NCBI GenBank assembly: GCA_938082635.1
Contig: CALLLI010000352.1
Location: 1 to 41,991, forward strand
Length of the DNA: 41,991 bases
Reading direction: 5' to 3'
From: an uncultured Verrucomicrobiales bacterium
GTDB lineage: Bacteria; Verrucomicrobiota; Verrucomicrobiia; Verrucomicrobiales; DEV007
The translations under genes and the position numbers were made by a program. The notes beneath the pieces were generated by a model. The model did not search any database and was not told where the DNA came from. It worked only from the letters and a program-made list of their open reading frames with translations. Within the stretch, counting starts at the first letter, position 1. Every line of letters starts with the position of its first letter. Positions 4,333 through 33,129 of this stretch are shown here, in pieces.

Positions 4333-4341
4333 GAGATTTCG

Positions 4342-14666: not shown

Positions 14667-15340
14667 TGCTTGAGGAGATATTGAATGTCTTCGCGGATTT
14701 TCACGGCGTGTGAGTCGCCCGTTGGACCGCCTAGCACATCGTAATAGTAACGAATCGCTCCCTTTTGATCGACCAGCACAAACTTGAACTCGTGTTCCAA
14801 TTCGCCAAAAGCGCTGATGTCGGCAGGGTCAGTCCGCTGGGTCACATTCATTCGGAAATGCTTGCTCATGTAATTGCGAATCTCCTTCGTATCCCCGGTC
14901 ACAAACCACCAGTTTCCGTCACCCATACCACGGTCTTGGTCCTTACCCCACTCCGCCATTTCTTCAGGCGAATCATTGGCAGGGTCCATGGAAAGGCCAA
15001 CAAACTGCAGATTATCCACCTCACTCGCGAACTCATCCTGAAGCTCTTTCATACGGCCCATGACGCCTTCACATCCAGCAGGGCACTTGGTGTAGAAATA
15101 CGCCAACACCCAAACTTTCCCTCTCAGATCAGCAAAGGAAATCTTCTCCCCACGATGATTGATACCTTCCAGCGGTTGGTCGAGCTGCGCGATCACTGGC
15201 AATTGTTGCCCAGCCGTTTCTTGCCCGCGTTTCATCTGGCGGACGTTCCAGAAGATCATCACAGCAAGAGCTATCACTATGCCGATAATCATCAAGACGA
15301 GCGATTTCCCATTGCCAGGAGCCTGGTCGTTAGTCGACAT
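14663..15340 (-). CDS. SCO1/SenC copper chaperone for cytochrome oxidase
   Basis: This 225-residue membrane-anchored protein (TM at about 13-31) has a periplasmic thioredoxin-like SCO domain that delivers copper to the CuA site of oxidase subunit II. The CxxxC motif is intact (YFYTKCPAGCEGVM, Cys86 and Cys90), and the third copper ligand His is at about 183 (LEHEFKFVLVDQKG). It lies in the oxidase operon directly after haem O synthase and is followed by the cysteine-less paralogue. Length and motifs are normal for the family. Confidence 0.95.
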   Translation of the reverse strand: MSTNDQAPGNGKSLVLMIIGIVIALAVMIFWNVRQMKRGQETAGQQLPVIAQLDQPLEGINHRGEKISFADLRGKVWVLAYFYTKCPAGCEGVMGRMKELQDEFASEVDNLQFVGLSMDPANDSPEEMAEWGKDQDRGMGDGNWWFVTGDTKEIRNYMSKHFRMNVTQRTDPADISAFGELEHEFKFVLVDQKGAIRYYYDVLGGPTGDSHAVKIREDIQYLLKQ

Positions 15341-15361: not shown

Positions 15362-16276
15362 TTAATGCCAGGCCAGCAGGACAACCGCGAGCATGACGGG
15401 TAGATAGAGTAAGGTGTAGAAGAAAAGCTGGCGCGCATGTCTACGCTCGCGAGACTTGTAGAAGCGCACCGACAGCGCCAGCAAGAAGCCAGTAAAGAGC
15501 GTCGTCCCTATCAAATAAACAACCGACGCGTGCCCGGTGAAGTAAGGAAACAGCATGAAGAGGAAGGTCACGATGCTGAATCCGACGGTGAGCCGTCCAG
15601 TCTTCACACCTGTCTCATCACCATTGCACCACATGACGAAACCGCCCTGCTCATACTGATCGCGATACATCCAGTTAATGGCGAGGAAATGCGGCAACTG
15701 CCAGAAGAAGAGGAGGCCAAAGAGGAAAAGCGCTTCAGCAGAATAGAGCGATTTCCCAGCGGCTGCCCAACCAATGAGAGGTGGTAGCGCACCGGACACG
15801 GCACCGACCAGGGTGTTCGTGGACGAGCGTGTTTTGAGTGGGGTGTAGACGAAGATATAAACGGCAATGGTCCCGGCAGCGAGACTGGCAGCCGCGAGGT
15901 TCACTTGCATTAGGAGGTGCAAGATACCCACGGCGGCGAGCAACCAGCCCAGACCAAAGGCGAGTTCGGGAGCCATGCGTCGGGAAGCCAAGGGCCGGTC
16001 TGCAGTGCGCTTCATCTTGGCATCCGCATCCATTTCCAAAATCTGATTGTAAACGGATGCCGCAAAGGCGCAGAGCGTGGTGCCGAAGAGCGTGTGCAGA
16101 AGAATCCAAAGATCGAAGGTGCCGCCACGACAACCGAGCAAGTAACCAAACATCGTCGTGACGACGACGAGAGCACTGAGACGTGCTTTCGTGAGCGTCA
16201 TGAAATCAGCCCGAGTAAGCGGTGCCGTTGCCGCTTTGGAGACTTCAGATTCGGTGGATTCAGCTATCATCGTCAC
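15362..16276 (-). CDS. ctaB: Protohaem IX farnesyltransferase (haem O synthase)
   Basis: This 304-residue UbiA-superfamily membrane enzyme transfers a farnesyl group to haem B to make haem O, the precursor of haem A for aa3 oxidases. The Asp-rich prenyl-diphosphate motif is clear (NQILEMDADAKMKRTADRPL), as are TKARLSALVV at the start and GAVSGALPPLIGWAA. Multiple transmembrane helices cover the whole length. No ctaA (haem A synthase) is seen in the window, so it must lie elsewhere or the oxidase may use haem O. The gene is separated from ctaC by about 80 bases, one of the larger gaps in the cluster, which contains a hairpin. Confidence 0.95.
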   Translation of the reverse strand: MTMIAESTESEVSKAATAPLTRADFMTLTKARLSALVVVTTMFGYLLGCRGGTFDLWILLHTLFGTTLCAFAASVYNQILEMDADAKMKRTADRPLASRRMAPELAFGLGWLLAAVGILHLLMQVNLAAASLAAGTIAVYIFVYTPLKTRSSTNTLVGAVSGALPPLIGWAAAGKSLYSAEALFLFGLLFFWQLPHFLAINWMYRDQYEQGGFVMWCNGDETGVKTGRLTVGFSIVTFLFMLFPYFTGHASVVYLIGTTLFTGFLLALSVRFYKSRERRHARQLFFYTLLYLPVMLAVVLLAWH

Positions 16277-16357: not shown

Positions 16358-17110
16358 TTAGCCTTCAGCCTTTGGCTTCGGCGCATTCTCGATCACCCAC
16401 TCATCAAATTCGTCGGCCTCGATCACTGTATAAAGCGCTCGCATCGATCCATGTCCTGCTCCGCAGAGCTGGCCACAAATGATGTCCCATTCACCAGTCG
16501 TGATCGGAGTGAACCACATCGGATACTCCGTGCCGGGGATGGCATCTTGGGAGACCCGTAAAGGCACCATAGAGAGGTTGTGGATCACGTCCTTCGAAGT
16601 GATATCAATCACGACAGGACGATCCTTGGGCATCGTCAGGCTACCTACTTGGACGATGTCATCAATCCCATTGGGATCTTCGCGATCCAAACCAGCCGGA
16701 GTCGTCACATAAAGGTCCTTATCGACACGACCAAACTTACCATCAGGTCCGGGATAGTGGAAAGCCCAACCAAACTGATAGGCCACCGCACGAATACGAA
16801 CGACATCAGGACCGACGGGGAAAGCTTCCACACGTTGAGCCCAGAAAGGTAGCGCAAAACCAATCAGCAAGATCGCCTCAATGATCACGACACCCACCTC
16901 GACGTGCGTGGAGGCGTGCCCGCGGACACCCACATAATCCGCCTTGGGATTCCGCTTGTGCCAGAAGCGCCAAATGCAAAAGAAGAAGAACAAGGTCCAC
17001 CCAATGAACAAAGCCGCCATGAAGAGGTGAACGAATTCATTCAGGGCATCCACCGTCACACCATGTGCGGAGGTGACTTCGGGGAGTTCCATCCAATCGA
17101 GGAGTCTCAT
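16358..17110 (-). CDS. ctaC: Cytochrome c oxidase subunit II
   Basis: This 250-residue subunit carries the CuA electron-entry site. Two N-terminal TM helices (about 26-48 and 70-90) are followed by a periplasmic cupredoxin domain. CuA ligands are visible: His177 (VIHNLSM), Cys212 and Cys216 (CGQLCG), His220 and Met223 (GAGHGSM). The electron-entry aromatic region AYQFGWAFHYPGPDG is present. No fused cytochrome c domain follows, so this is an aa3-type rather than caa3-type subunit, and electrons must come from a separate cytochrome. The start at 17110 is chosen because longer in-frame versions (from 17194) overlap the upstream gene. It is unusual that subunit II is far downstream of subunit I, after III and IV. 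Confidence 0.94.
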   Translation of the reverse strand: MRLLDWMELPEVTSAHGVTVDALNEFVHLFMAALFIGWTLFFFFCIWRFWHKRNPKADYVGVRGHASTHVEVGVVIIEAILLIGFALPFWAQRVEAFPVGPDVVRIRAVAYQFGWAFHYPGPDGKFGRVDKDLYVTTPAGLDREDPNGIDDIVQVGSLTMPKDRPVVIDITSKDVIHNLSMVPLRVSQDAIPGTEYPMWFTPITTGEWDIICGQLCGAGHGSMRALYTVIEADEFDEWVIENAPKPKAEG

Positions 17111-17147
17111 GATAAAGTAGGTGCTAGAAAGGGTAGAGAGAAAGAGT

Positions 17148-17348
17148 TTAAGCGAGCGCTTCTTCTTGTTCGGCAGCCGCGAATGCTTTGGCACGACGAT
17201 TGATATTCACGAAGAAAGCAACCACACCGCTAAGCACCACCAACATGATGATCAACAGAGCCATGATCGCATAACCAATGGCTTCGGTCGTCTTGTGACC
17301 AGGAGCCATACAAACAGCGCAAGCGAGTGTGAAGAAGGAAAACGTCAT
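17148..17348 (-). CDS. Small single-span membrane protein in the oxidase operon
   Basis: This 66-residue protein has one strong TM helix (AIMALLIIMLVVLSGVVAFF) and a C-terminal Ala/Glu-rich tail. The N-terminal segment FSFFTLACAVCMAP is also hydrophobic and could be a signal or second helix. It fits exactly between two oxidase genes, starting 3 bases after the previous stop, so it is probably expressed. No known family is recognised. Its position suggests an accessory subunit or assembly factor of the aa3 oxidase. Confidence 0.65.
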   Translation of the reverse strand: MTFSFFTLACAVCMAPGHKTTEAIGYAIMALLIIMLVVLSGVVAFFVNINRRAKAFAAAEQEEALA

Positions 17349-17577: not shown

Positions 17578-17889
17578 TCATCTAAATCGTGTAATTGGAT
17601 CGGACTGAGCGAGCATAAAAAGCAAGAACAGCCCAGCCACAAAGAAGAACGTGAATACGAGGATACGATAGATCATCGCCTTCTCATGATTGAGATGCAT
17701 GAAGATATAAGCCACAAGGCCCGCTTTGAAGGTCGCAATCAAGAGACCAACAGCCACGTTTACCGCAAACGAGCCAAAGTCGACAAACTTGGCCACGCCA
17801 ACGGTGATGAACGTGAACGCGATCAGCGTTAGCCCCACGATAGTGTAGGTCTTGACGTGCTTTTGAATTTCTTCTGGAGAATCTGCCAT
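17578..17889 (-). CDS. Cytochrome c oxidase subunit IV family protein
   Basis: This 103-residue protein with three TM segments matches the prokaryotic COX4 family: a polar N-terminus (EEIQKHVKTYTIVGLTLIAF) precedes TM1, then FAVNVAVGLLIATFKAGLVA and the signature YIFMHLNHEKAMIYRILVFT before the last TM. This small subunit stabilises the subunit I-III core. It lies directly downstream of subunit III in the usual I-III-IV order. Confidence 0.92.
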   Translation of the reverse strand: MADSPEEIQKHVKTYTIVGLTLIAFTFITVGVAKFVDFGSFAVNVAVGLLIATFKAGLVAYIFMHLNHEKAMIYRILVFTFFFVAGLFLLFMLAQSDPITRFR

Positions 17890-17914: not shown

Positions 17915-19381
17915 CTACATCAGGTAGAAGATCGGGAAGAGGAAGATCCAGACTAGGTCCACAAAGTGCCAGAACAAGCCACCGACTTCTACTCGGTTAG
18001 CCATGTGCTCTGGGCACTGGAGAAAGAGCTTCCGGCCAAAGAAGAGGAAGTAACCGAGAACGAGCATCCCGCCCACCACGTGCAGACCATGCAGACCTGT
18101 CATGGTGAAGTAAATCGCGTAGAAAGGGTTCTTTCGCGGACCGAAGTTGGAGAAGAACTCCACGTCCTCAAAAGGAATGGTCACTTTCGGATGGCCACCA
18201 TGGCTATCGGCGGTCGCTCCAGCTGCCGCATGCACTTCTTCGTCGCCATGCTCGGTGTGGTCTTCTGCGTGGAGCTTGTCTAGAAAGACACGCTCGAAGT
18301 CCATGAAGGGCTCTTCTTCAAACTCTTTGTCAGGATGCTCTGCTTTCCACTCGGCCACGTCAGCTTCGTAAGCCTCCACTTTGGGTGTGTGGTACTTTGT
18401 GAAGTCAGCAAGAAGCTTCTTTCCCTCAGTAGCATCATTGAAGTGGGTAAAGAGAGTGGAATCAGCAACGACCTTCTCTCGTGGATCGTCACGACGGAGA
18501 TAGACACGCATGTCGAGTTCATCGATCTCCAACTTCAACGTCGCATCGACCAATTTGCCTTCAAGAGTCGTGGCGAGTCCTCGCGTGAACTCAAATTTAC
18601 CGGCCTCCCAAGAAAGCGCCTTGTTGCGAGGAATGACAAACTTGCCCGGCCTGGATAGCGTTAGTTTGAGCTGACCTGCATCATCGAACGACTCGAGAAT
18701 CTTGTAATCCTCCGAAACCTTCGCTGTTAAACTCTCAGAACCTTTGGTGTCGCCCTCAGCTGCGAGGCGATCCGCTTTAGCGCGAAGCTTGATACCCTTC
18801 TTGACCTTCTCGAACCACTTGCGAGACGGATTCACCTCGGTGCCGTCGTCCGTGACGAAGCGAATGTCGCTCTCGTTCTCAAGATACTTGAGGAAATAGT
18901 GGCTCCCAGAAGCACCATCAACAATGGCATGAGAGGCTTCGAACACGAGGCCTTTCGCTTCTCCCTTTGGAACGTCATGGTCAAGGTGACCAGAGATCAC
19001 CGTCCCGTCCATCAGAGTGGCGTGGTAGTGATTGAACTTCGCGGTGTATTCGAAACTCTTGACCACCAAGAAAGTGCCCGCACTCGCGACGACCAGAAAC
19101 ATCCAGAACTGGAACCTTCGCCAATTTCGCATCTTGAGAGCGACCCACGCATAGACAACGAACACACTCGACGCGATAAGGACCAAGGTATTTACGAAGC
19201 CGAGTCCCACTTTCATTTCGTCCATCGGCCATGGATAATCAGCTCCAAGACGCAGGAAGATGTAACTCGAGAAGAGACCACCGAAGAGCATGACCTCAGA
19301 GGCGAGGAAGAGCCAGATGCCCACCTTGGCATTCCAAAGCCCGGTGTCAGGTCGGGCGGTGACGGTGTATGGGATATCCAT
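17915..19381 (-). CDS. ctaE: Cytochrome c oxidase subunit III with a large soluble insertion
   Basis: This 488-residue protein has a normal five-helix subunit III frame at its two ends: TGLWNAKVGIWLFLASEVML (about 13-32), TLVLIASSVFVVYAWVALK, and FWMFLVVASAGTFLVVKSFEY at about 92-112, then FYAIYFTMTGLHGLHVVGGM at about 420-439 and FWHFVDLVWIFLFPIFYLM at the end. Between the third and fourth helices, where homologues have a short loop, about 300 residues (119-415) are inserted. The insert is hydrophilic, rich in Lys/Glu/Asp, and ends in a His-rich stretch (HAEDHTEHGDEEVHAAAG). By normal subunit III topology it should face the periplasm. The frame is continuous, so this is not two genes. Subunit III usually has about 190-290 residues. 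Confidence 0.92.
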   Translation of the reverse strand: MDIPYTVTARPDTGLWNAKVGIWLFLASEVMLFGGLFSSYIFLRLGADYPWPMDEMKVGLGFVNTLVLIASSVFVVYAWVALKMRNWRRFQFWMFLVVASAGTFLVVKSFEYTAKFNHYHATLMDGTVISGHLDHDVPKGEAKGLVFEASHAIVDGASGSHYFLKYLENESDIRFVTDDGTEVNPSRKWFEKVKKGIKLRAKADRLAAEGDTKGSESLTAKVSEDYKILESFDDAGQLKLTLSRPGKFVIPRNKALSWEAGKFEFTRGLATTLEGKLVDATLKLEIDELDMRVYLRRDDPREKVVADSTLFTHFNDATEGKKLLADFTKYHTPKVEAYEADVAEWKAEHPDKEFEEEPFMDFERVFLDKLHAEDHTEHGDEEVHAAAGATADSHGGHPKVTIPFEDVEFFSNFGPRKNPFYAIYFTMTGLHGLHVVGGMLVLGYFLFFGRKLFLQCPEHMANRVEVGGLFWHFVDLVWIFLFPIFYLM

Positions 19382-19414: not shown

Positions 19415-21319
19415 TTAAACTTTGGCAGGCTCTTTCGCCGGCTTACCTTCCTTGTCAGGCTCAATCCACTGCGGTGAGAAATCGCGTTCCTCACCTGGCA
19501 CGCTGTACTCGTAAGGGCCTTTGTCAGCGATAACCTCAAACGTGAAGTTTCCATGCGGAGGCGGAGTCGGCGTCGCCCACTCGAGTGTAGTTGCTCCCCA
19601 AGGGTTGTCGTTGGTGATCTTCTTACCGAAGATGAGCGATCCAAAGAAGTTGATGATGAACGGAATCTGCGCCACGGCCAACATCAACGCTCCATAGGTC
19701 ATAAGAACGTTGAGATCTCGGAGAGTGATCACGTCGCCCTTCGCAAAGAGGTTCGAGAAGAAACTTCCCGCCTCGAAGAGCGTCTTCTCGGTCGTGAGAG
19801 GGAATGATAAACCACCATCATACCAGCGGCGGTGGAAACCAGCGACACCCTGCACCATCATCGGCGCGAAGAGTACATTCATGGCGATCAGTGATGGCCA
19901 GAAGTGGAGATGGGCGAGGACTCCATTCATCATCCGACCCGTCCAGTTTGGGTACCAATGATAGATCCCTGCGAAGAGACCAAAGATGACGCCTGGCGCG
20001 ACCACATAGTGGAAGTGCCCAATCACGTAGTAGGTGTCGTGCAAGTGCAAGTCGACAAGGTTGAAGGCCAGAGGCAACCCAGTCAGACCACCAATACCAA
20101 ACATCGGTAAGAAGGCCGTGGCCCATAGCATAGGCGGGGTGAAGCGAATAGAACCGCCCCACAAAGAAATCAGCAAGCAGGTCAGGAGAATGACCGAGGG
20201 AATCGAAATGAGCACGGTCGTGGTTTGGAAAAACGCACTGACCCAAGCACCCATTCCCGTCATGTACATGTGGTGAGCCCAGACAATGAAGCTTAAGAAA
20301 CCTAGAACAAGCACCCCGTAGACCATGGACCGGTATCCCCAGAGTGGTTTGCGGGTATTGGCAGGAATGACCTCAGCCACAATCGCGATGGCAGGTAGAA
20401 GAAGGACGTAGACCTCAGGGTGACCGAGGAACCAGAAGAGATGCTGATAGAGGAGAGGACTTCCACCGCCAGAAACGTCGAAGCGGGCACCATTCACGAC
20501 AAGACCTTCAGGCACAAAGAAACTGGTGAAGGCCAATCGGTCCATCAACTGCATGATCGCAGCCACCTCGAGAGGGGGGAAAGCGAGGAGGAGGAGGAAA
20601 CCCGTCACCATCATTGCCCAGACAAAGAACGGCAGGCGCATCCAGGTAAGGCCCTTGGCTCGCAAGTTGATGATCGTTGCGACGAAGTTCACCGCACCGA
20701 GAAGAGAAGAGGTGATGATGAAGACCATGGCCGACAACCACATGGTCTGACCAGTCCAGAAAACGTTCGGATAATCTAGCTGAGCAATGGTCGCGAGAGG
20801 CGAATAATTTGTCCACCCAACCTGAGCGGCACCCGACGGCATGAAGAAACTGCCGAGCATCATGAGACCACCGATAAAGAAACACCAGAAACTGGCCATG
20901 TTCAGTCGAGGGAAGGCCATGTCAATCGCTCCAATCTGCAGCGGCGTGACATAATTACCAAAGGCGGCAAAGCCTAACGGAACGATCCCAAGGAAGACCA
21001 TGATCGTACCGTGCATGGCGCCAAACATGTTATACAACGACCCGTCCATCACCCCGTCGGACACGAAACGATCAACGAGGAACAAACGGAGGAACCAAGG
21101 CAATTGCTCACCTGGATAGGCGATGCTCCAACGCATGCAGAGCATCAGATAGAATCCAAACGCCAAGAAAAAGAGCGCCGTGAATCCATACTGAAGCCCG
21201 ATCATCTTGTGATCGGTGGAGAAGACATACTTCTTCCAAAACGGATCCTCGTGATGACCGTGATCATCATCATGAGCGTGATCAGCTAAGTGCGGATCTG
21301 CAGTAGTAGCGGTTGCCAT
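19415..21319 (-). CDS. ctaD: Cytochrome c oxidase subunit I (aa3-type)
   Basis: This 634-residue haem-copper oxidase core subunit holds the low-spin haem and the haem-CuB oxygen-reduction site. The low-spin haem His is in MFGAMHGTIMVF. The CuB and cross-linked Tyr region is FWFLGHPEVYVLLLPA, so the GHPEV glutamate of A1-type enzymes is present. The other two CuB His are in VWAHHMYMTGM. The helix X haem ligands are in YYVIGHFHYVVAPG. A His-rich N-terminus (DHAHDDDHGHHEDP) precedes the first helix, and a C-terminal tail ends Lys/Glu-rich. All ligands are intact, unlike the CcoN-like protein upstream, so this is the functional oxygen reductase of the cluster. Confidence 0.97.
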   Translation of the reverse strand: MATATTADPHLADHAHDDDHGHHEDPFWKKYVFSTDHKMIGLQYGFTALFFLAFGFYLMLCMRWSIAYPGEQLPWFLRLFLVDRFVSDGVMDGSLYNMFGAMHGTIMVFLGIVPLGFAAFGNYVTPLQIGAIDMAFPRLNMASFWCFFIGGLMMLGSFFMPSGAAQVGWTNYSPLATIAQLDYPNVFWTGQTMWLSAMVFIITSSLLGAVNFVATIINLRAKGLTWMRLPFFVWAMMVTGFLLLLAFPPLEVAAIMQLMDRLAFTSFFVPEGLVVNGARFDVSGGGSPLLYQHLFWFLGHPEVYVLLLPAIAIVAEVIPANTRKPLWGYRSMVYGVLVLGFLSFIVWAHHMYMTGMGAWVSAFFQTTTVLISIPSVILLTCLLISLWGGSIRFTPPMLWATAFLPMFGIGGLTGLPLAFNLVDLHLHDTYYVIGHFHYVVAPGVIFGLFAGIYHWYPNWTGRMMNGVLAHLHFWPSLIAMNVLFAPMMVQGVAGFHRRWYDGGLSFPLTTEKTLFEAGSFFSNLFAKGDVITLRDLNVLMTYGALMLAVAQIPFIINFFGSLIFGKKITNDNPWGATTLEWATPTPPPHGNFTFEVIADKGPYEYSVPGEERDFSPQWIEPDKEGKPAKEPAKV

Positions 21320-21360: not shown

Positions 21361-22104
21361 CTACTCGGCAGCCATAGGCTCCATCGTCTCAGGATCAATC
21401 TTGGGTCCTTCGAGGTTCTTATTGAACCCTTCGAGGTCAGAAACTTTCAAGCCAGGGATGTCGTGAGTAGCACGGGCCTTCTTCACCATCTCTTCAGTCA
21501 CGATGCCATTGTCGCCTTCCTTGAGCAGTTTGTCGTTGCCCCAAGATGTGCGAATGTAAGTCATCAGCTGAGCCATTTTCTTGTCGCTGAGCGCGTCTTT
21601 CCAAGGAGTCATGACACTGTTGTAAGACTTGCCAGCTACCGTGATGGGACCTTGCATCCCGTTCAGGATAGTCATGGCAAGACGCTCGCTTCCTTCATAA
21701 ACATACTCAGAATTGGCAAGTGGCGGGTAGAGTCCCGCTTGGCCAATACCCGAGGTCTGGTGACACGCGGCACAGATGGCGCTGTAGTGGTTCTTGCCCT
21801 CTTTCACCCACTTAGCAAAGGGAGGCAGCACCTCTTTCGGGCCAGAGGATGGTGCTTCCTTCACTGTGTAATCCTCAACGAAAGTGAAACCGTCGTTGGA
21901 ATAACCACCGTTGGTCGCTCCAAGGTAGCCCGCGCCAACAAACACAGCAATACCTGCAACCAAGAATCCCCACAAAGACACAGGCTCATTGCCAACTTTA
22001 GGATCGGGCTTCTCGCGCGCAGCTGCTGCTGCATGCTCGCTGACGACGCTGACCTTCTCGTCGTAATCGCTGTGGGTAGAATCGTTAGGATCTGAGGCGC
22101 TCAT
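21361..22104 (-). CDS. Membrane-anchored monohaem cytochrome c (CcoP-like)
   Basis: This 247-residue protein has a cytoplasmic N-terminus, one TM helix (about 43-62, SLWGFLVAGIAVFVGAGYLG) and a periplasmic class I cytochrome c domain with CAACH at 111-115 and a likely axial Met165 (SVMTPW). The arrangement resembles CcoP/FixP but with one haem domain instead of two. Its start overlaps the stop of the CcoO-like gene by one base, so the two are tightly coupled. It lies just before subunit I and is the best candidate for the direct electron donor to CuA of the aa3 oxidase, since subunit II has no haem c. Confidence 0.85.
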   Translation of the reverse strand: MSASDPNDSTHSDYDEKVSVVSEHAAAAAREKPDPKVGNEPVSLWGFLVAGIAVFVGAGYLGATNGGYSNDGFTFVEDYTVKEAPSSGPKEVLPPFAKWVKEGKNHYSAICAACHQTSGIGQAGLYPPLANSEYVYEGSERLAMTILNGMQGPITVAGKSYNSVMTPWKDALSDKKMAQLMTYIRTSWGNDKLLKEGDNGIVTEEMVKKARATHDIPGLKVSDLEGFNKNLEGPKIDPETMEPMAAE

Positions 22105-22838
22105 TAGGACTGGGGAACGGCATCATCACCAGCTGCCGTAGCTGCCGTGCCTTTACCGCTCAGGCTTTTAGGAACTAGATGATCTTTTCTCAAAGACTTC
22201 AGGTAAGAAACCAAGGCGTCCGCACGTGGAGTCGGCACCACTTCGTAACCCTCTTTCGGAGCGAACTCGCCTTCCAATGGAAGGGCCTTTGAACCTGCGC
22301 CAGAACCTTTGCGCTGAACGCGGTAAAGGTTCTTGTAACCTGGCATATTGGAGCGGCCGTTCAAACTGCGAGGACTGTAAAGAGATTGATGAATCTGTGT
22401 CTCACTAAGGTTACGCCAGCCGAAGTTACTTAGGTCAGGTCCCGTGCGCTGAATTCCAAGATGAGCGACGGTTTCTTCGAGATAATCCTCAGGACGCAGG
22501 GTGCGGATCGGCGCGGGCTTTCCTTCGTCACCTTCCCAATCAAGACCGCGGCCATTCCACTCGTCGCGCCAGAGATCGGTGCCGAGTTGATCTGAAGGGC
22601 GGACCATCTGCGTGTGGCAATAGGCGCAACCTTCTGCCGTATAAATCGCATGCCCATTGGCAACGCGACCGGCACCACCGGGAGGATACGAACTGCCATC
22701 GGCAAGCTCGAGCTCGTCTTCGCTATAAGGAGTCGCCGCGAGATCCTTGAAGCTCATGTGAGGCATCAAGATCAACGCGAACCATGGCAACCCGAAGGTG
22801 ATGGCAAGTAGGATGATGAAAGAACGGATCTGAGTCAT
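22104..22838 (-). CDS. ccoO: CcoO-like cytochrome c (cbb3 subunit II family)
   Basis: This 244-residue protein has an N-terminal TM anchor (FIILLAITFGLPWFALILM) and a periplasmic monohaem cytochrome c domain of the CcoO/FixO family. GHAIYTAEGCAYCHTQMVRP carries the haem at 71-75. RTGPDLSNFGWRN and the axial-ligand region GRSNMPGYKNLY (Met165) align with canonical CcoO. The C-terminal tail is Ala/Gly-rich and lacks similarity. In true cbb3 oxidases CcoO passes electrons to CcoN, but the partner CcoN here lacks its catalytic site, so this subunit probably serves another electron route. Confidence 0.88.
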   Translation of the reverse strand: MTQIRSFIILLAITFGLPWFALILMPHMSFKDLAATPYSEDELELADGSSYPPGGAGRVANGHAIYTAEGCAYCHTQMVRPSDQLGTDLWRDEWNGRGLDWEGDEGKPAPIRTLRPEDYLEETVAHLGIQRTGPDLSNFGWRNLSETQIHQSLYSPRSLNGRSNMPGYKNLYRVQRKGSGAGSKALPLEGEFAPKEGYEVVPTPRADALVSYLKSLRKDHLVPKSLSGKGTAATAAGDDAVPQS

Positions 22839-22842
22839 GCTA

Positions 22843-24321
22843 CTAGGCTTGAGCTTGCGCAGGGTTCATCTCCTTGGCGGCTTTCTCTGGATGAATGTAA
22901 GTGGCTTGGCCACTCCGACGTCCGAGACGGCAGATCATCAAGAGGATGTGGAAGAAGAACATGAGGTTAGAAAGAATGATGAACACCCAGGCAATGGAAC
23001 GGCCGACGAGGAAACCCTGAGCGACTTCCCAGCTGAGAACGTGTTCGGCTTCATAAGCCATCGCTTGCTGCCCTTGAAAGAGACCACCCATGAGCAAGCA
23101 GAGCAGCATGGCCGATGTGCCATAGGCAGAGAACCAGAAGTGGAAACGAATCCATTTGCCAGAGCGCCACTCACAGCCCATCAAGCGCGGCATGATAAAA
23201 TAGATCGCACCGAACATGACCATGGTGAAGAAGCCATAGAGAGCGGTCATCTGAGCACCGAGTTCTCCATGAGAGAATTGGAAGATTTTCCCGAATCTAA
23301 AGAGAGAGAAAGCCGCGCCTAACAAGATGTAAACAGCGAAAGCAATCGCGCCAAAGAAGACGAAGCGGAGCGTGGGACTGTAGTTCACCAAATCGATACT
23401 GCCCTTCATCGTTCGGTAGTGATTGATCCCGATAAAGACCATGGGAACGATCATAAAGATCATCGCCGCACCACTCACGGCTGGCATCCACGCAGGAAGC
23501 GGACCGCCCATGTAGTGCTGCACGCCGACCCAACCGCCTAGAAGCGCGAGACTCCAGAAACTAGCAAGTGCCAACTGGTAGCTGTGAATCGGCCGGCCAA
23601 CGACCTTAGGGATGAGATAGTAAGTCACACCCAGGCCAATTGGAACGACCCAAAGCATGAGTAGTGTTCCACTATACCAGCTACCAATCGCCGCATTAAT
23701 AACCGCAGCGCTCGGGAAGTGATGAATGAGAAGATTCGATGTGAGATAGATCCAAGGGAACCAGAAGCAGGCGGCTAGGATATACCACTGAGAAATGAAC
23801 ACGTGGCCGTCGCGACGCGCTTTAAACATCATCACCAAATAGCCAGCGATGATGCAGTAGGCGACAAACATAAGAACCCAAACGCCTTTGGGGAAATCAA
23901 GGAACAGCATCGAGGTGCCGTGGCCGAGCAGAATACCCGTCACACCAACGGTGACGCCGACATTCCAAAGAATCCCGGCGACGATCAAGATCGCGATGCG
24001 CGGCAGGGAAATGCGGCAAAGTCGGCCCATGATCCAAAGAGCCGTGCCCAGTCCAACCTGAAAAACCCAGCCATACATGAATGCATTCAAGTGAGCTGGC
24101 TGCAGACGGCCATAGGTCATGAATGGCAAGGAAGCGAGAATGTCAGGGCTGTGGAGTTTGACCGAAGCGGCCAAACCAAGTGCCAGGGAAACGAAAAGCC
24201 ACGCCAAGCCGCTGATGAAGAAGAAGAGGACGGGAATCCGCAGCGAACGGTCAATCGCCACACGTTGTTGCGCGTCTTCCTCCGGCGTTGCCGTCGTCAC
24301 GATGTTAGATTGAGTCGCCAT
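22843..24321 (-). CDS. ccoN: CcoN-like membrane protein without CuB and haem b3 ligands
   Basis: This 492-residue, roughly 12-helix protein is clearly homologous to cbb3 oxidase subunit I: RLQPAHLNAFMYGW matches the helix II low-spin haem site (His77 kept), and YYLIPKVVGRP and FGAIYFIMPRLMG match conserved CcoN stretches. The catalytic residues are missing. In gapless motif comparison with canonical CcoN, the CuB His of WYGHN is Gly218 (WYSGT), the PHH pair is VQH (Gln268, His269), and the helix X GHVHSG is GAQMTA (Ala356, Met358). It should therefore not reduce oxygen. It may hold one haem or act as a membrane scaffold for the CcoO-like cytochrome. It starts 13 bases after the 135-residue membrane protein gene. 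Confidence 0.88.
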   Translation of the reverse strand: MATQSNIVTTATPEEDAQQRVAIDRSLRIPVLFFFISGLAWLFVSLALGLAASVKLHSPDILASLPFMTYGRLQPAHLNAFMYGWVFQVGLGTALWIMGRLCRISLPRIAILIVAGILWNVGVTVGVTGILLGHGTSMLFLDFPKGVWVLMFVAYCIIAGYLVMMFKARRDGHVFISQWYILAACFWFPWIYLTSNLLIHHFPSAAVINAAIGSWYSGTLLMLWVVPIGLGVTYYLIPKVVGRPIHSYQLALASFWSLALLGGWVGVQHYMGGPLPAWMPAVSGAAMIFMIVPMVFIGINHYRTMKGSIDLVNYSPTLRFVFFGAIAFAVYILLGAAFSLFRFGKIFQFSHGELGAQMTALYGFFTMVMFGAIYFIMPRLMGCEWRSGKWIRFHFWFSAYGTSAMLLCLLMGGLFQGQQAMAYEAEHVLSWEVAQGFLVGRSIAWVFIILSNLMFFFHILLMICRLGRRSGQATYIHPEKAAKEMNPAQAQA

Positions 24322-24334
24322 TGAAAGGGGTCCG

Positions 24335-24742
24335 TTACTTCTGAGCTGGGGCTGCGTCCGCTTCAGGTTTGGCCGTCTCGGCAGGAAACGCCATGGCTGC
24401 TGCTGCTGCTTCCGCTGCCTTCGTGCCAGGAACCGGCACGGCCGATTTCTGCGCTTTAGATAGTTTGTTCGTCATAGAAGAAAGGGCCACGGAGGCGGGC
24501 ACTTCGATCGTGCCGTCGTCGTTCTTCTTCCAAGTGTTTACCAATTCTGATTGAGCAGCCAAAGAGGCGGTGTCCAGCTCCGTCCGGCGAGCATCATCGA
24601 GATTCGGCTTGGCGTTCGACATCAACATGGCTTCAAAGGCCACGAATAACAGCACTAGAATGCCGAATAAAGCAAAAGTCAGGATAGCTCCCCAGAAACT
24701 GAAGAAGCGGTTGAGTGGTGTGTCACCAGAATGCGTTTCCAT
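24335..24742 (-). CDS. Small membrane protein between actF and the CcoN-like gene
   Basis: This 135-residue protein has one N-terminal TM helix (SFWGAILTFALFGILVLLFVAF is the core region, about 14-35), a charged middle and an Ala/Pro/Lys-rich C-terminus. The middle piece TWKKNDDGTIEVPASVAL recalls a short conserved motif of small respiratory-chain proteins in related bacteria, where a Trp, an acidic turn and a Val/Ile-Pro step are followed by Ala. That likeness is from memory and weak. It lies 14 bases from both neighbours, so it is part of the operon, probably as an accessory subunit of complex III or of the CcoNO-like module. Confidence 0.7.
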   Translation of the reverse strand: METHSGDTPLNRFFSFWGAILTFALFGILVLLFVAFEAMLMSNAKPNLDDARRTELDTASLAAQSELVNTWKKNDDGTIEVPASVALSSMTNKLSKAQKSAVPVPGTKAAEAAAAAMAFPAETAKPEADAAPAQK

Positions 24743-24756: not shown

Positions 24757-26133
24757 TTAGTTAGCGAGGTTCACGGATTCATGCAGTCGAGGGTCGCGGC
24801 AAGGATAGAGGCGACGCTTCGAGAGCATGCCTAAGAAATACCAGACGACCAGGCCACCCACAGTCACGAAGGCAAGGATATCGAGGAGGAAGGCACCACT
24901 ATAAGATGGATTCGTCGCTGCCATCATTTCTTCATTCGATGCTAGAGAGATAAAGCGCTCCGGCATGATGATCAGGTAGTAGTCGAGGACGTGTGCGCAG
25001 AGATTCCAAACACACGCCATGGCGACATACTTGGTGCTCCTCTTCACCCATGCAGGGAGAAGGAAGAGGAACGGAATCACAAAGTGCACCCACATGAGAG
25101 CCGAGCTTCCGATGTGCCAGTTGCCCGTGTTTCTCGTGATAAAGAACTTCGTCTCTTCAGGAATATTGGCATACCAGATGAGGAAATACTGAGAGAACGT
25201 GACGTAGGCCCAGAAGATCACAAAGGCGAACATCAGTTTACCCATGACGTGCAAGTGCTCGTCATTGACCAACTTAAGATAACCCAAACGCTTGAGGAAG
25301 AGCACTAACAAGATAGACACTGCCATCGAGTTCAACGCGGAACCAGCGAAGACATACACGCCCCACATGGTGGAGAACCAGGCGAAATCGAGGCACTTCA
25401 GGTAATCAATCGCAGCAAACGAAGCCGCCACAGCGAACACAGGCAGGAAACCACAAGCAGCGCGTCGCATGCGATAGGTCCATTTGTGATTGCCATCTTC
25501 ATCCTGACGCGCAGACAAGGAACGCATCCACAGCGCAATCAAGCTCAGGGCGAGGAAGTATCCAAATGCCCGGAGGTAGAAGAAGGTTTTATTGAGATAA
25601 GGATATTTGTGATAGAGCAGGTAAAGATGCGGATCCTCTTGAGCCTTCACGTGAACCGCATGGCGGAGACTGTGATCCTCGGCCCCTTGATCCATCGTTG
25701 CACCCGCACCCGCAGCCGCTTCCACAGCGTTGTCGGCGTGCATCTCAAGCTCAATCTCAGTCAGATGCTTCGACCATTCGTAAAGATAGTCGCGAAGATT
25801 CGGAATGAGCAAGGGAATGGCTAACAAAGCCATGAACGGAATCACACAGGCGATATTCTCAAAGATCCGCCGAACCGCAATTCCCCAACCCGAGTTGGTT
25901 GCGTGATGCAGAAGCATCCAGAACATCCCGCCTAGAGCGAGACTGAAGAAGTAGTAGAAACCGAAGAGCCAGGAGTAGATGAACTTCTCGGCCAGTGGCG
26001 AGAAGAAGAGGATCCCGGAAGCAATCAGTCCGATGAAACCGATCGCAAAGGCCACTTTGCGGATGGGTGCAAGTTTACTGGCATCCAGGCGCTCGCCATC
26101 GGGTGGCAAGTCGATATGGGAATGGGCACTCAT
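24757..26133 (-). CDS. actF: Alternative complex III subunit ActF
   Basis: This 458-residue membrane protein with about ten TM helices matches ActF, one of the two quinol-side integral subunits (ActC and ActF) of alternative complex III. GFYYFFSLALGGMFWMLLHH, AIDYLKCLDFAWFSTMWGVY and FWAYVTFSQYFLIWYANIPE are typical family segments. A hydrophilic stretch with several His and acidic residues at about 125-175 separates the third and fourth helices. It is fifth downstream of actA, in the usual A-B-C-D-E-F order. Confidence 0.93.
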   Translation of the reverse strand: MSAHSHIDLPPDGERLDASKLAPIRKVAFAIGFIGLIASGILFFSPLAEKFIYSWLFGFYYFFSLALGGMFWMLLHHATNSGWGIAVRRIFENIACVIPFMALLAIPLLIPNLRDYLYEWSKHLTEIELEMHADNAVEAAAGAGATMDQGAEDHSLRHAVHVKAQEDPHLYLLYHKYPYLNKTFFYLRAFGYFLALSLIALWMRSLSARQDEDGNHKWTYRMRRAACGFLPVFAVAASFAAIDYLKCLDFAWFSTMWGVYVFAGSALNSMAVSILLVLFLKRLGYLKLVNDEHLHVMGKLMFAFVIFWAYVTFSQYFLIWYANIPEETKFFITRNTGNWHIGSSALMWVHFVIPFLFLLPAWVKRSTKYVAMACVWNLCAHVLDYYLIIMPERFISLASNEEMMAATNPSYSGAFLLDILAFVTVGGLVVWYFLGMLSKRRLYPCRDPRLHESVNLAN

Positions 26134-26163: not shown

Positions 26164-26856
26164 TTACTCTGCCGCTGGCTTCGCCTCCCCCTGGGCTTCA
26201 TCAAACGCTCTCTGAACTTCAGCTGCAGGCATCGACTTGCGTTGCTGCAATGTGCGCACATAGGCCACGATCGACCAGCGATCTTTCAGAGTTAGATTGG
26301 CACCGTAGGCGCCCATGAGGCCTTTGCCGTTCACAACGACATCGTAGATGTTTCCGTCAGGACGTTGCGCGAGATCCGCCACAGGCGCGATAATAAGATT
26401 GGTAGGAAGAATACCGTATTTGCTGATGACCCCAGCGCCGTTGCCAGACTCACCATGGCAAATGGCGCAGTAGATTCCGAACTTCTCTTGGCCTTGCTCT
26501 AAAAAGCCGGCATCCACCGTGATCTCTTCCGGCATACCATGCCCGTAATATTCACCAATCTTACCCGTGTTCAGGTAGTCATTCGCGAAAGCATAACCAT
26601 CGAGGTTGGCCTTACCGCCAGCAGATGCAGCCACAGCCGGCACTTCCCATCCCATGGGGATCGTTCCAGCCACAGGCAGTTGAGCCGCTTGGCCGTTGCC
26701 GAAGAAGTCACTCGTGGACTGCGCATTCGACTTGCCCTGCATGTCCATGTCATTGAAGATCTGGATCGGCGACCGCGCTGTTTTAGAACCCCGAAAGCCA
26801 GCGACGCTGACGACGAGAGCAATGAGGAGAAGGTAGCCTAGAATGAAATATCTCAT
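26164..26856 (-). CDS. actE: Alternative complex III cytochrome subunit ActE
   Basis: This protein of 230 residues starts at the ATG at 26856 (MRYFILGYLLLIALVVSVAG). A longer in-frame version would overlap actD. One N-terminal hydrophobic segment is followed by PMGWEVPA-type linker sequence and a monohaem cytochrome c domain with GIYCAICHGESGNG and distal GLMGAYGANLTLKDRWSIVA, which supplies the likely axial Met. ActE accepts electrons from ActA/B and may pass them to the oxidase. The anchor lacks the lipobox Cys described for some ActE proteins, so attachment may be by an uncleaved helix. Confidence 0.9.
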   Translation of the reverse strand: MRYFILGYLLLIALVVSVAGFRGSKTARSPIQIFNDMDMQGKSNAQSTSDFFGNGQAAQLPVAGTIPMGWEVPAVAASAGGKANLDGYAFANDYLNTGKIGEYYGHGMPEEITVDAGFLEQGQEKFGIYCAICHGESGNGAGVISKYGILPTNLIIAPVADLAQRPDGNIYDVVVNGKGLMGAYGANLTLKDRWSIVAYVRTLQQRKSMPAAEVQRAFDEAQGEAKPAAE

Positions 26857-26863
26857 CGTGGGG

Positions 26864-27406
26864 TTAGGCAGGGCCTTGCTCTTCGACCAGTTCAATGTTA
26901 GTTGCGCCGAGCTCCTCGAGGAAGACACGTGTCTTCTCGCGGTCAAACTTCTCGTCTCGACGCTCTACCGTAAGGAAGAAACCGTCGTCTGAGAACTTCT
27001 TGAAGTTCCGCGAGGTGAAAAGTGGGTGATTCAAGCGAGGTAATCCCATCAGAGCAAGACAGCCGAAGAGCGTCGTGAACGCCGCGAACAGAATAGTCAG
27101 CTCGAAGATCACAGGGAAGAACGCCGGAATAGTGTAAATGTTTGTCGGCTTGGCTTGAACGATCGTCGGGTAAAGAGCGACCTGGGTGAAATACTGGAGA
27201 GTGAAGCCGGTCAAGGTACCAGTGGCACCACCAAAGAAGACGAACCAAGGCAGAATGGAGCGCTTCAAGCCCATCGCTTCATTCATCCCGTGGATCGGGA
27301 ATGGCGAATGCACATCCCACTTACGAAAGCCCGCATCACGAACTTTCTCTGCAGCCGAATAAAGGGCCGCTGTCGAGGGAAACTCACAAAGATAACCGTA
27401 TATCAT
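26864..27406 (-). CDS. actD: Alternative complex III subunit ActD (DUF3341)
   Basis: This 180-residue protein matches DUF3341/ActD, a small membrane subunit of alternative complex III. The N-terminal soluble part MIYGYLCEFPSTAALYSAAE and KWDVHSPFPIHGMNEAMGLK are family hallmarks. Two TM hairpin helices follow (WFVFFGGATGTLTGFTLQYF and PVIFELTILFAAFTTLFGCL), and the C-terminal part (GFFLTVERRDEKFD, FLEELGATNIELVEE) is ferredoxin-like in pattern. Gaps to actC and actE are 17 and 7 bases. Confidence 0.94.
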   Translation of the reverse strand: MIYGYLCEFPSTAALYSAAEKVRDAGFRKWDVHSPFPIHGMNEAMGLKRSILPWFVFFGGATGTLTGFTLQYFTQVALYPTIVQAKPTNIYTIPAFFPVIFELTILFAAFTTLFGCLALMGLPRLNHPLFTSRNFKKFSDDGFFLTVERRDEKFDREKTRVFLEELGATNIELVEEQGPA

Positions 27407-27423: not shown

Positions 27424-28863
27424 TCAGGCTTTCGCTTCCTCCGGTTGAGATCCAGCCCCGTCAGGGTCGGGCTCATTATAGTGAGGATCTGACTGCGGCA
27501 GAATGCCCTTCACCTCCGACATGGCAATGACAGGAAAAAAACGAATGAAGAGTAAAAAGAGAGCGAGGAACATTCCGAACGTTCCCAAGAAGGTGATCTG
27601 TTCAACCCAAGTTGGGTGATACATGTCCCAAGCACCTGGCATCCAGTCTTGAGCAATGGAAGTGACAAAGATCACGAAGCGCTCGAACCACATGCCGATG
27701 TTCACAAACATGCAGACGACCATGACCACCACGATGTTGTATCGAGCCCGCTTGAACCAAAAGACCTGGGGAGCGATCACGTTACAGAACATCATCACCC
27801 AGTAGGCCCAGTAATAGTAGCCGCTGAACATCCGATTCTCGAAAGCAGCGATCTCATACTTATTCCCGCCATACCAGGCGATGAACAGCTCCATGAGGTA
27901 AGCATAACCAACGATCGTTCCGGTAAAGCAGATGATCTTCGCCATGTTATCAATGTGCTTCGGCGTGATCAGATCATACAAGTTGTAGATCCGGCGAGCC
28001 GGAATCATCAGGGTCAATACCATAGCGAATCCACCGAAGATCGCACCAGCCACAAAGTAAGGCGGGAAGATCGTGGTGTGCCAGCCAGGCACGGTCGATG
28101 TGGCGAAGTCAAAGGAGACGATCGAGTGCACAGAAAGCACGAGCGGCGTCGAAAGAGCAGCCAACAAAAGGTAGGCCATCTCGTAGTGATTCCAGTGACG
28201 GTTACTTCCGCGCCACCCAAGAGCAAAGATACCGTAGCAAAACTGCTTAATCTTGTTCGTCGCACGATCACGAAGAGTCGCGAGGTCAGGGACAAGACCG
28301 AGATACCAGAAGATCACAGACACCGTGAAGTAGGTGGAGACCGCAAAAACGTCCCACAACAACGCCGATTTAAAGTTCTGCCAAATGCCGTTCGCGTTTG
28401 GAACTGGCGCTAGGAACCACACCATCCAGATACGACCCACGTGCACCGCCGGAAAGATACCGGCGCACATCACCGCAAACAGGGTCATGGCCTCGGCCGC
28501 TCGGTTGATCGAGGTCCGCCATTTCTGTCTTGTGAGGAAGAGAATCGCAGAAATCAGGGTTCCCGCGTGTCCGATACCAATCCAAAAGACGAAATTCGTA
28601 ATGGCCCAACCCCAACCGACAGGGTGGTTGTTTCCCCACACACCCACACCGGTGGAAATGAGGATAATCAAACCAATAGGCACGAGCGTCGCAATAAGCG
28701 CCGCAGGAATAAACATGAGCCACCAAAGAAGCGGCTGAGGCTCTTCAACGACCCCACAGATCCGCTCAGTGATCCAGTTATAGGAGCGCTTGTTTAGCAC
28801 AAGCTTCTCACGCTCCATAGGAGCGGAGGCCGTACTCTCAGCGGTTGTTGTTCCGTTAGCCAT
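27424..28863 (-). CDS. actC: Alternative complex III subunit ActC (NrfD-like)
   Basis: This 479-residue membrane protein of the NrfD/PsrC family has about ten TM helices and forms the quinol-binding subunit of alternative complex III. Typical family segments include [55 protein letters not shown]-like [20 protein letters not shown], and [17 protein letters not shown]. The loop His and Asp residues near helix 2 and helix 6 are those usually linked to quinol oxidation. It lies between the iron-sulfur subunit gene actB and actD in canonical order. Confidence 0.95.
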
Positions 28864-28886: not shown

Positions 28887-31800
28887 TCAATGAATGTGCT
28901 TGGATGTCGTGCCGACTTCTACGCCGCCTGGCATCTTTAAATTCGGGTTCTTAATCCGCGCGAGATAAGACGTACGCGGCCGGGTGTTCACATACTTCAA
29001 AAGATCGTAGCTGCGAGGAGATTCCTTAAAGCGATTCACGGTGTCCTCATCGTTATTGAGATTGCCAAACTGAATGGCCTCGACCGGGCAAGCCTCCTGA
29101 CAAGCCGTCTTCACCGCATTCGCAGCTACTTTAATCTTATCAGAATCTCGAGCTTCCACCTTCTTGGCAATCTTGGCAGCCTGGAGGCGCTGCACACAGT
29201 AGGTGCACTTCTCCATCACTCCACGCATGCGAACAGTGACATTCGGATTCTTCTGCAAGTCGCCAATGCCCCCATCATGCGTCTCACCGAAGGGACCCGC
29301 ATAAAGGTTATTGAACTCCAAGCCAGGAACCTTCTTCGTGACGAGCGGGTTGCGCTTGTTGTAGTCAAAGAAATTGAAACGCCGCGCTTTGTAAGGGCAG
29401 TTGTTCGCGCAGTAACGGGTGCCGATACAACGATTGTAGGCCATCACGTTGAGACCATCATCGCTGTGGACCGTCGCATTGACCGGACAAACGGCCTCGC
29501 AAGGAGCAGCCTCACATTGCTGACAAGCAACTGGCTGCGGCAAGATCTCTAACGCATCCTCATTGAGAATCTCCACACCACGGCTCTCGGTATCAGAGTG
29601 TTGATGATTCGTCGGATCAGACTCCATCACGATAGTTGGATCGGTGAAGTAACGATCCATCCGGATCCAGGCCATTTCACGACCACGCAAGACCTGATCC
29701 TTACCCACAATCGGGATATTATTCTCGGCCTGACAAGCCACCTGACAGGACGTGCAGCCCAGGCAGGTATTGAGGTCGATCGTCATCGCCCACTGGTGAT
29801 TCGGATCGAGCTCGTTGAACGGCACTGAACCCGTGCTCGAGCGACCCTGAGGCTTATAGATGTGCTGATTTGGTGGGATGTGCGAATCCATCCCGATGGT
29901 CTGAGCAAACTCTGGCTCCTTGCGGTAGGCCTCAAGACCACCATCACGGACCAGTCCGCGACCTTCCATGCTGTTGTGCTCTTGCGTCAGAGCAAGCTCT
30001 GACCACTTCTCTATCACCACCTTGCCATCTTTGGGAGCATGATTAGCGAGCGGCAAGCCAGGCCTCACCTCTTCATCAGACGTCAGAATTTCCAACGTCG
30101 CCCCGCTTGCCACGTAGGGTGACACGGAAGTGCGCATGCGGAAGGCATCGAAACCCGTTCCGTAACCCACACGACCACACACTTGCTGACCGTAACCCAC
30201 TGACAAGGTGACACAATTATCGGCGTGACCAGGAGCTTGCAGCACCGGAAAGAAACCTTCACGGCCATTGAAAGCCAGCTTCACACGCTGGCCATCCTCT
30301 TTCAAACCCAGCTCATTGAACGTCTTCACGCTCATGAGTGCGGCATTATCCCAAGTCAGCTTTGTGATAGGATCAGGTGCTTCCTGCAGCCAGCCATTGT
30401 TGATGTAGCGGCCATCGTAAACTCGATTATCAGGCACGAAACGAACCTCAAGCGCGTCGATCCCAGAAGGACCGGCAACAACATCAGGGGAAGTCGCTTT
30501 GGCGCCACTGACGGTCACGGCCGGGTAGGCTGAGCTGGCCAAGAATCCATCGCGCAACGCGTGATTCCATGCAGTCTCTTTATCACCAGAAATAGTGAGC
30601 GTGTTCAGGAAGGTATCCCTGACCGCCTCGTAATCAGCGCCAGGAGTCACCTCCATTGCTCCCGCAATGACATCCTCAGAAACAGGAGCAGCCTCTTCTG
30701 TCAGGGGAGCCTCTTGGAGAAGCTTGAGAAACAAGTTCACCTCAGAAACACCACCAACCAACGGATTCACCATCGGCTGAATCACCGAGTAAGTTCCATC
30801 AGCCGCACGCGCATCACCCCACTCCTCAAGGAAATGTGTACCTGGCACATGCCAGTCCGCCAAAACTGCCGTATGATTGCGATTGAAACCTAACTGAATG
30901 TAAGTCGTCTTCTCGACGATCTTTTCCCAAGCATAGTCGTTAGGCGCATCGTAAACAGGATCGGCAGGCGTCGTGCTGATCACGGTCGTGACAGCACCAG
31001 ACTCCACTGCCTCACGCAAATCCGCCAGACCACCAAAGGTACGCTCGTTTGATTGCACCACCGAGATGGTTTTACCATACGCGCCGAGCTTCTCATTGAT
31101 CGCGGCAACCAAAGCATGAACTTCGGCAGGCTGTTGTGGGCCTGCTAGAACGATTGATTTGCCAGCCGCTGCCAACAAATCATCCACGGCAGGCTTGACC
31201 CAGGCAGCGATACGCTCATCGACCTCAGCAGTGACACCAGCGACACCAAGTTGCTGAGCAACAGCTGCAGCCACACGCACTACCTGACTCGCAGCCACAC
31301 GCAAACGGTGATCGGCCACGCTGCCCGTCACAGTAAAGGCTGGCTCCACCACATAAAGACGATTCATCTCGTCCGAGGTGCGCTGTTGCCACTCACCATT
31401 CGCCAAGCGATCCGCCCGGCGACTAGAAGAGAACCCAAGAGCAACATTACCAACTGAATCGAGCCCCAAGAAATTTGAATCCAAGGACAGCACCCGCGTC
31501 GCCTGCTCAAGGCGAGGCAATAAGGAAAGATCATCACGCCCAAAGGCCGCCCTCACCCCGGCGCGCACCTTGTCGTTATTGAAAGCCTCATAGCGGAACA
31601 ACTTCGCCTGAGGAAACTTCACTGAAATCTCGCTAAGCAAGCGATCACGCGTTGGCGAAACACCTTCACCCACCAACAGCGCTAAGCCCTTACCCTGAGC
31701 AGCCGCCAAATCTGTGCGCAGCGTTTCTAGACCAGCATGTAACGCCTCTTTTGTAGAAACTTGCCCCTTGGCAAGAACCTCTCGAGAACGATCCGGATCA

Positions 31801-32273
31801 TAGAGATTCAACACCGCAGCCGGAACGAAGTGATTCGCACCCGGGCTGCTCTTGGTTTCTCCATCCACCTCGATCTGATTGACCGGATGGAGCGCGTTTC
31901 CCTTCAGAGCAATCGGACGCCCCTCAAAAGATGTCGCCACAACAGGCGTGCACCCACCGAGATGAGGCATGGCCGTCGCGTAGAATAAATTCTTACCAGG
32001 AATCACCCACTCCACCGCCTTCGTGTAAGGCACCAAATACTTCTCAGGACGACGGCAGCCCGCCACCCCAAAGCCAGCAAGCGCCGTCGAGGCACCCATC
32101 AGCTTCATGAAATTTCTACGCGACGACTCCGTCTCTTCGACTTCCGAAGCTCCAGCAGGAAACTCACGACCGAGCCACTCGCGGAATTTCGGCGTGTCTT
32201 CCAACTCGCCTAGGCTACGCCAACGACGCTTCTCGCCTTTCGCGGGCTCTGGATGATGGATGATGCGTTTCAT
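28887..32273 (-). CDS. actB: Alternative complex III subunit ActB (molybdopterin-fold/Fe-S fusion)
   Basis: This 1128-residue periplasmic protein fuses a molybdopterin-oxidoreductase-like domain (which lacks cofactor in characterised ActB) to a four-cluster ferredoxin domain. A twin-arginine-like signal is present near residue 48 (SSRRNFMKLMGASTALAGFG), followed by CRRPEKYLVPYTKAVEWVIP. C-terminal cluster motifs are CLGCTSCQVACQAENNIPIV, CQQCEAAPCEAVCPVNAT, RYCANNCPYKARRFNFF, CTYCVQRLQAAKIAKK and CQEACPVEAIQFGN. It carries electrons from ActC-bound quinol toward the haem subunits. Length is normal for the fused form. Confidence 0.96.
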   Translation of the reverse strand: MKRIIHHPEPAKGEKRRWRSLGELEDTPKFREWLGREFPAGASEVEETESSRRNFMKLMGASTALAGFGVAGCRRPEKYLVPYTKAVEWVIPGKNLFYATAMPHLGGCTPVVATSFEGRPIALKGNALHPVNQIEVDGETKSSPGANHFVPAAVLNLYDPDRSREVLAKGQVSTKEALHAGLETLRTDLAAAQGKGLALLVGEGVSPTRDRLLSEISVKFPQAKLFRYEAFNNDKVRAGVRAAFGRDDLSLLPRLEQATRVLSLDSNFLGLDSVGNVALGFSSSRRADRLANGEWQQRTSDEMNRLYVVEPAFTVTGSVADHRLRVAASQVVRVAAAVAQQLGVAGVTAEVDERIAAWVKPAVDDLLAAAGKSIVLAGPQQPAEVHALVAAINEKLGAYGKTISVVQSNERTFGGLADLREAVESGAVTTVISTTPADPVYDAPNDYAWEKIVEKTTYIQLGFNRNHTAVLADWHVPGTHFLEEWGDARAADGTYSVIQPMVNPLVGGVSEVNLFLKLLQEAPLTEEAAPVSEDVIAGAMEVTPGADYEAVRDTFLNTLTISGDKETAWNHALRDGFLASSAYPAVTVSGAKATSPDVVAGPSGIDALEVRFVPDNRVYDGRYINNGWLQEAPDPITKLTWDNAALMSVKTFNELGLKEDGQRVKLAFNGREGFFPVLQAPGHADNCVTLSVGYGQQVCGRVGYGTGFDAFRMRTSVSPYVASGATLEILTSDEEVRPGLPLANHAPKDGKVVIEKWSELALTQEHNSMEGRGLVRDGGLEAYRKEPEFAQTIGMDSHIPPNQHIYKPQGRSSTGSVPFNELDPNHQWAMTIDLNTCLGCTSCQVACQAENNIPIVGKDQVLRGREMAWIRMDRYFTDPTIVMESDPTNHQHSDTESRGVEILNEDALEILPQPVACQQCEAAPCEAVCPVNATVHSDDGLNVMAYNRCIGTRYCANNCPYKARRFNFFDYNKRNPLVTKKVPGLEFNNLYAGPFGETHDGGIGDLQKNPNVTVRMRGVMEKCTYCVQRLQAAKIAKKVEARDSDKIKVAANAVKTACQEACPVEAIQFGNLNNDEDTVNRFKESPRSYDLLKYVNTRPRTSYLARIKNPNLKMPGGVEVGTTSKHIH

Positions 32274-33121: not shown

Positions 33122-33129
33122 GGTCAAAG

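Follow-up and report, generated by a model that had tools for sequence, protein, structure and literature searches.

Why does an operon for alternative complex III (ACIII) and an aa3-type oxidase also carry a homolog of CcoN, the catalytic subunit of cbb3 oxidases, in which the oxygen-reducing site has been lost? The question is raised by a contig of 41,991 nucleotides from an uncultured Verrucomicrobiales bacterium (CALLLI010000352.1), here called the window. The original prediction placed such a protein at positions 22843 to 24321 with an intact frame of 492 residues, and both the loss and the frame were confirmed: the open reading frame runs from ATG to stop, on the minus strand, a detail that we add. 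The protein matches Pfam COX1 (2e-39) and the TIGR00780 ccoN model (2.5e-31, well under the equivalog cut-off). Every match found in the PDB by phmmer is a cbb3 subunit I, the best being CcoN of Pseudomonas stutzeri (3mk7, 2.6e-28), and identity to cbb3 CcoN is 21 to 22%. An AlphaFold2 model built from 26 sequences (the window and retrieved loci) has a pLDDT of 88.6 and a pTM of 0.91. Foldseek searches with this model return CcoN chains at the top (TM 0.84 to 0.90; 0.89 for 3mk7) and also match NorB, ba3, and aa3 structures. Together with the COX1 match, this places the protein in the haem-copper oxidase superfamily by descent and by its 12-helix fold.

The alignment with 3mk7 is gap-free over approximately residues 205 to 383, which span the CuB1, CuB2/3, and helix X sites, so that these columns could be shifted only via paired compensating gaps. 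The gap-free alignment originally claimed is thus accurate for the C-terminal half and not for the remainder. The six ligand residues named in the prediction all stand in the expected columns (window/CcoN: H77/H60, G218/H207, Q268/H257, H269/H258, A356/H345, and M358/H347). A seventh loss had gone unnoticed, that of the active-site Tyr on helix VII, where Y251 of CcoN is replaced by G262. The low-spin haem b site, a bis-His pair in CcoN, has H77 and M358; the proximal His of high-spin haem b3 is A356; and one of the three CuB His remains (G218, Q268, and H269). The columns of R57, W203, T215, S240, and H337 (CcoN numbering), which are invariant in intact relatives, some of them with another invariant residue, are likewise replaced in the window protein. 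The catalytic site has been lost and the predicted CcoN fold retained, as had been proposed.

It is next to inconceivable that this pattern reflects intact ligands that were misaligned, or an assembly error. Neither the alignment of the ligand region nor the CcoN-like predicted fold leaves room for ligands at shifted positions, the outcome that the original prediction had named as counting against it. The same state recurs in many independent genomes of the family, including single-contig genomes, which rules out sequencing or assembly error and local decay. Since a relative with 76% identity (G053) and others share it, it is no error of this assembly.

The CcoN homolog belongs to a cluster, all on the minus strand, that holds both the ActA to ActF genes and the oxidase genes. 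Its upstream part encodes an ActA-like multihaem cytochrome c (32300 to 33127, several CxxCH motifs), ActB, a molybdopterin-type and iron-sulphur protein (28887 to 32273), the NrfD-like ActC (27424 to 28863), an ActD-like subunit (26864 to 27406), and an ActE-like mono-haem cytochrome c (26164 to 26946, CxxCH), all recognized by conserved order and, apart from ActC, by sequence. The ActF-like subunit (24757 to 26133) has no match in Pfam or NCBIfam and is named by operon position and conservation. Between it and the CcoN homolog lies a gene for a 135-residue protein with a membrane helix (24335 to 24742), also without a family match in Pfam or NCBIfam; this protein is found again in some relatives. 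Downstream, as in cbb3-type oxidases, the adjoining gene encodes a CcoO-like mono-haem cytochrome c with an N-terminal membrane helix (22104 to 22838; FixO 3.6e-12, ccoO-type models, CxxCH present). It is followed at the CcoP position by a second mono-haem cytochrome c (21361 to 22104; Cytochrom_C 5.3e-12, weak ccoP match).

The aa3 oxidase comes next. CoxA, its subunit I (19415 to 21319; CtaD_CoxA 2.6e-161), has all six His and the Tyr in the ligand columns, and its O2-reducing site is predicted to be a working one. The remaining genes encode CoxC, subunit III (17915 to 19381, NCBIfam match), CoxD, subunit IV (17578 to 17889; COX4_pro 6.2e-11), CoxB, subunit II (16358 to 17194; CoxB 1.3e-33), with a CuA motif and no haem c, a CtaB-like haem O synthase (15362 to 16276), assigned by position and sequence character, two tandem Sco-like proteins (13965 to 15340), assigned by sequence and conserved order, and a DUF420 protein (13458 to 13958; 5.5e-41). 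In CoxC (488 residues), a long internal insert of about 200 residues or more interrupts the family match, and many relatives look similar in context. In most relatives, a single Sco-like protein was seen. Ketosynthase-like and acyltransferase-like proteins are encoded downstream of the oxidase operon on the same strand (11086 to 13274). In the genome from which the window comes (88.65% complete), the aa3 enzyme is the sole other COX1 protein, and no cytochrome bd was found.

The search for homologs beside ActF and CcoO-like genes that had been suggested found the same ligand-less state in the operons of many relatives. A match to the CcoN homolog is present in 64 of 75 genomes of the window's family (41 of the 42 good ones), although a few genomes have nothing but a weaker match, to a longer COX1 protein, and in 122 of 388 genomes across the phylum. 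We retrieved 80 named loci, including that of the isolate Verrucomicrobium sp. BvORR034. Most of the complete loci encode ActA-B-C-D-E-F, the CcoN homolog, the CcoO-like protein, and the cytochrome c in this order, often followed by CoxA, CoxC, CoxD, CoxB, CtaB, Sco, and DUF420; the order from ActA to the cytochrome c hardly varies across the class. In one family (L119 to L121, L124 to L127, L131, L132, L134, and L136), an extra cytochrome c gene stands between ActF and the ligand-less CcoN. Five records titled Akkermansia muciniphila (L037, L039, L050, L069, and L081) also carry the operon; these titles look mislabelled, and their isolate names suggest environmental metagenome-assembled genomes.

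After de-duplication, ligands are missing from 142 Verrucomicrobiota relatives, whereas all six are present in more than 30 others, so that the second condition set against the prediction, homologs that all keep the six ligands, describes one part of the family and not the other. Within the closest group, 31 proteins are intact, and related lineages have ACIII operons with a fully intact CcoN at this position. The active-site Tyr is present in 100% of intact and 1% of ligand-less proteins. Twelve columns (CcoN R57, E122, W203, H207, T215, S240, Y251, H257, H258, H337, H345, and H347) are each occupied by a single residue among intact proteins, whereas the ligand-less proteins mostly carry other residues there. 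A further 24 positions reach identities of 95% or more in the intact and the ligand-less group alike. Fully replaced ligand sets such as AAVNQQ and FSQKFL occur beside intermediate ones; Prosthecobacter-type loci, for instance, have HHQHFI and HHQKFM. The set HNQRYH of one family (L129, L135, and L170) keeps both low-spin His and has lost the CuB and b3 ligands, which makes a single-haem state, a one-haem intermediate, plausible. Intact, half-emptied, and empty CcoN states thus coexist today. We found no earlier report of ligand loss in CcoN in the open-access papers searched.

The intact state is ancestral, because all seven residues are present in outgroup CcoN and in five relatives on proteobacterial plasmids, four of which (from Paraburkholderia, Azoarcus, Cupriavidus, and Paracoccus) fall on the same branch. 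A tree of ActC, built without the CcoN homolog itself, shows seven changes of state, at least five of them forced, and a single origin of ligand loss appears in none of its bootstrap trees. A single origin also fails the AU test, whether the long Methylacidiphilaceae-like branch is included (P = 5e-6) or removed (P = 2.6e-4). A tree of CcoN without the ligand columns gives four changes, all forced, even though its long branches would draw emptied proteins together. One ancient loss is therefore ruled out on both trees, and the ligands were lost separately at least four to five times. Transfer of single genes between operons may bear on this history of separate losses.

The frame has been maintained after the loss. 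Pairs of ligand-less proteins with dS below 1 have dN/dS values of 0.05 to 0.29 (Nei-Gojobori), intact pairs (two computable, one at dS 1.04) have values of 0.05 to 0.08, and ActC of the same pairs has values about equal or lower. Between the window and its nearest relatives dS is saturated, with pN at 0.04 to 0.15. The ligand-less CcoN is under purifying selection, as the original prediction of selection and not decay had it.

The partner proteins have kept their redox motifs. All 141 CcoO-like neighbors of ligand-less CcoN contain CxxCH, as do 135 of the 136 next cytochromes c. Every readable ligand and Tyr residue is intact in the 81 CoxA proteins of the retrieved loci, where one row has unread X residues and one column a gap. 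All 70 CoxB proteins lack a haem c of their own, so a separate electron donor is needed. Counts of de-duplicated ACIII loci that extend 5 kb or more downstream, which are not independent by descent, give 60 ligand-less and 0 intact loci in which coxA follows, and 32 ligand-less and 23 intact ones from which it is absent. A strict rule that ligands are lost only with coxA adjoining was not supported; the 32 ligand-less loci without coxA in the available DNA indicate that adjacency of aa3 is not required. Outside these counts, one locus (L171 in G332) has an intact CcoN with coxB-coxA adjoining, the arrangement expected before ligand loss. Of 71 genomes of the class, four lack an A-type oxidase, and all four have an intact CcoN, which is the sole COX1 protein in G075 and G220.

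We consider it likely that the ligand-less protein is a pseudoenzyme: once the catalytic subunit of a cbb3 oxidase linked to ACIII, it has been emptied of its active site and now serves as a scaffold for cytochromes c. O2 chemistry would have shifted from cbb3 to aa3, and the CcoN fold would have been retained in the membrane, with little or no haem inside, as a platform on which the CcoO-like protein and the mono-haem cytochrome c are anchored between ACIII and aa3. Electrons would then pass from quinol through ACIII and the haems of the CcoO-like protein and cytochrome c to CuA of CoxB and on to aa3. The ligand loss, the predicted fold, the selection, and the motifs of the partners are observed; from them we infer the scaffolding, the physical association, the electron path, and the absence of haem.

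The alternative closest to the original prediction is that one low-spin haem b was kept, ligated by His77/Met358 here and by His/His in another family, and that the protein is an electron wire and not an empty scaffold. H77 and M358 of the window do sit in the low-spin ligand columns, and both low-spin His persist in the HNQRYH proteins. As a role for the whole family, however, a His77/Met358 cytochrome b is ruled out by the variation in these columns. Residue 77 is Phe in 34 of 174 relatives and Ala, Ser, or Gln in others, residue 358 is mostly Ile, Thr, Leu, or Met, and the two occur together in only a handful of proteins, the window's among them. R57 and H337, on the propionate side, are replaced as well; together with T215 and S240 they belong to what we take to be the haem-propionate or proton-channel regions of the cbb3 structure. 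A retained haem b is thus an unlikely general explanation, although the window protein itself may bind a single haem b through H77 and M358.

A functionless relic on its way to being lost would account for the longer branches of the ligand-less proteins and for the pairs whose dN/dS (0.16 to 0.29) exceeds that of ActC. This seems quite improbable given a frame that is intact in nearly all relatives across the whole class, dN/dS values far below 1, a gene that holds its place in the operon, and long retention after the loss in several independent lineages. Less probable still is that the former pocket has gained another activity, for example as a path for ions or quinones. Charged or polar residues do recur at the old ligand sites in a clade-specific manner (most Verrucomicrobiales have Arg or Lys in the CuB3 column, and the set QQRHQQ occurs elsewhere), but the polar T215 and S240 have been lost, and no residue that sets the ligand-less proteins apart from the intact ones is conserved in 90% or more of them, which argues against a shared new site.

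The haem-free scaffold reading bears on published accounts of verrucomicrobial methanotrophs. The Methylacidiphilaceae-like group, METHYLACIDIPHILACEAE, comprises four genomes of one family (2.2 to 2.5 Mb), all four with AMO/pMMO genes, and we take them for verrucomicrobial methanotrophs from pMMO and class, among other features. In each, the genes for ACIII, the CcoN homolog, the CcoO-like protein, the cytochrome c, CoxA, CoxC, and CoxB form a single run, and the ligand set is SESHFV or ADAHQT. Their remaining COX1 proteins are two of A type, one or two of about 560 residues, and one of about 470 residues that looks like NorB; the NorB and B-type readings follow sequence character, NCBIfam giving no confident name. 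No second CcoN-type protein was seen among the COX1 proteins of these genomes. A cbb3-type oxidase has been placed beside ACIII in verrucomicrobial methanotrophs (PMC6688271, PMC8498564, PMC10205796, and PMC11102522), and one of these papers ties it to high O2 affinity. The published Methylacidiphilum enzyme resembles the window protein in adjoining ACIII and aa3 genes and is most likely the same ligand-less protein. It differs in having been described as a working, high-affinity oxidase, whereas its ligand columns here read as above. Because the emptied protein is the only CcoN-type protein in the four genomes, the published cbb3 is probably not an oxidase.

In fold, COX1 family, and a CcoO-like gene directly downstream, the window protein is like P. 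stutzeri CcoN; unlike it, it has lost the ligands and Tyr and adjoins ACIII and aa3 genes. Intact ACIII-linked verrucomicrobial CcoN and proteobacterial CcoN-CcoO-cytochrome c operons share its branch (32 to 43% identity) and its gene layout, but keep the six His and the Tyr. No ACIII genes were found beside the examined proteobacterial operons where these were annotated. In Flavobacterium johnsoniae, ACIII supplies electrons to aa3 (PMC8552683), with contact via oxidase subunit III (PMC8361435). The window groups ACIII and aa3 genes as in that supercomplex. To our knowledge, no CcoN-like or CcoO-like subunit has been described in the F. johnsoniae assembly. On balance, we somewhat favor a broader proposal, that the haem-copper superfamily has a haem-free branch in which a subunit emptied several times independently acts as a structural adaptor that links ACIII, by way of its old cytochrome partners, to aa3 in an ACIII-(ghost cbb3)-aa3 supercomplex, Methylacidiphilum cbb3 included. 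A respiratory chain could then swap its oxidase yet retain the wiring of the old one.

The presence of ccoN is often taken as a mark of microaerobic respiration, and family searches name these proteins cbb3 oxidases. In Verrucomicrobiota, the ligand columns should be checked before ccoN is read in this way. Another intact and emptied pair possibly exists at locus L279 (G149, contig C34), where a weak, unrelated-looking COX1 protein of 477 residues (positions 3946 to 5376), with some ligand His absent by eye, adjoins an apparently intact COX1 protein of 567 residues.
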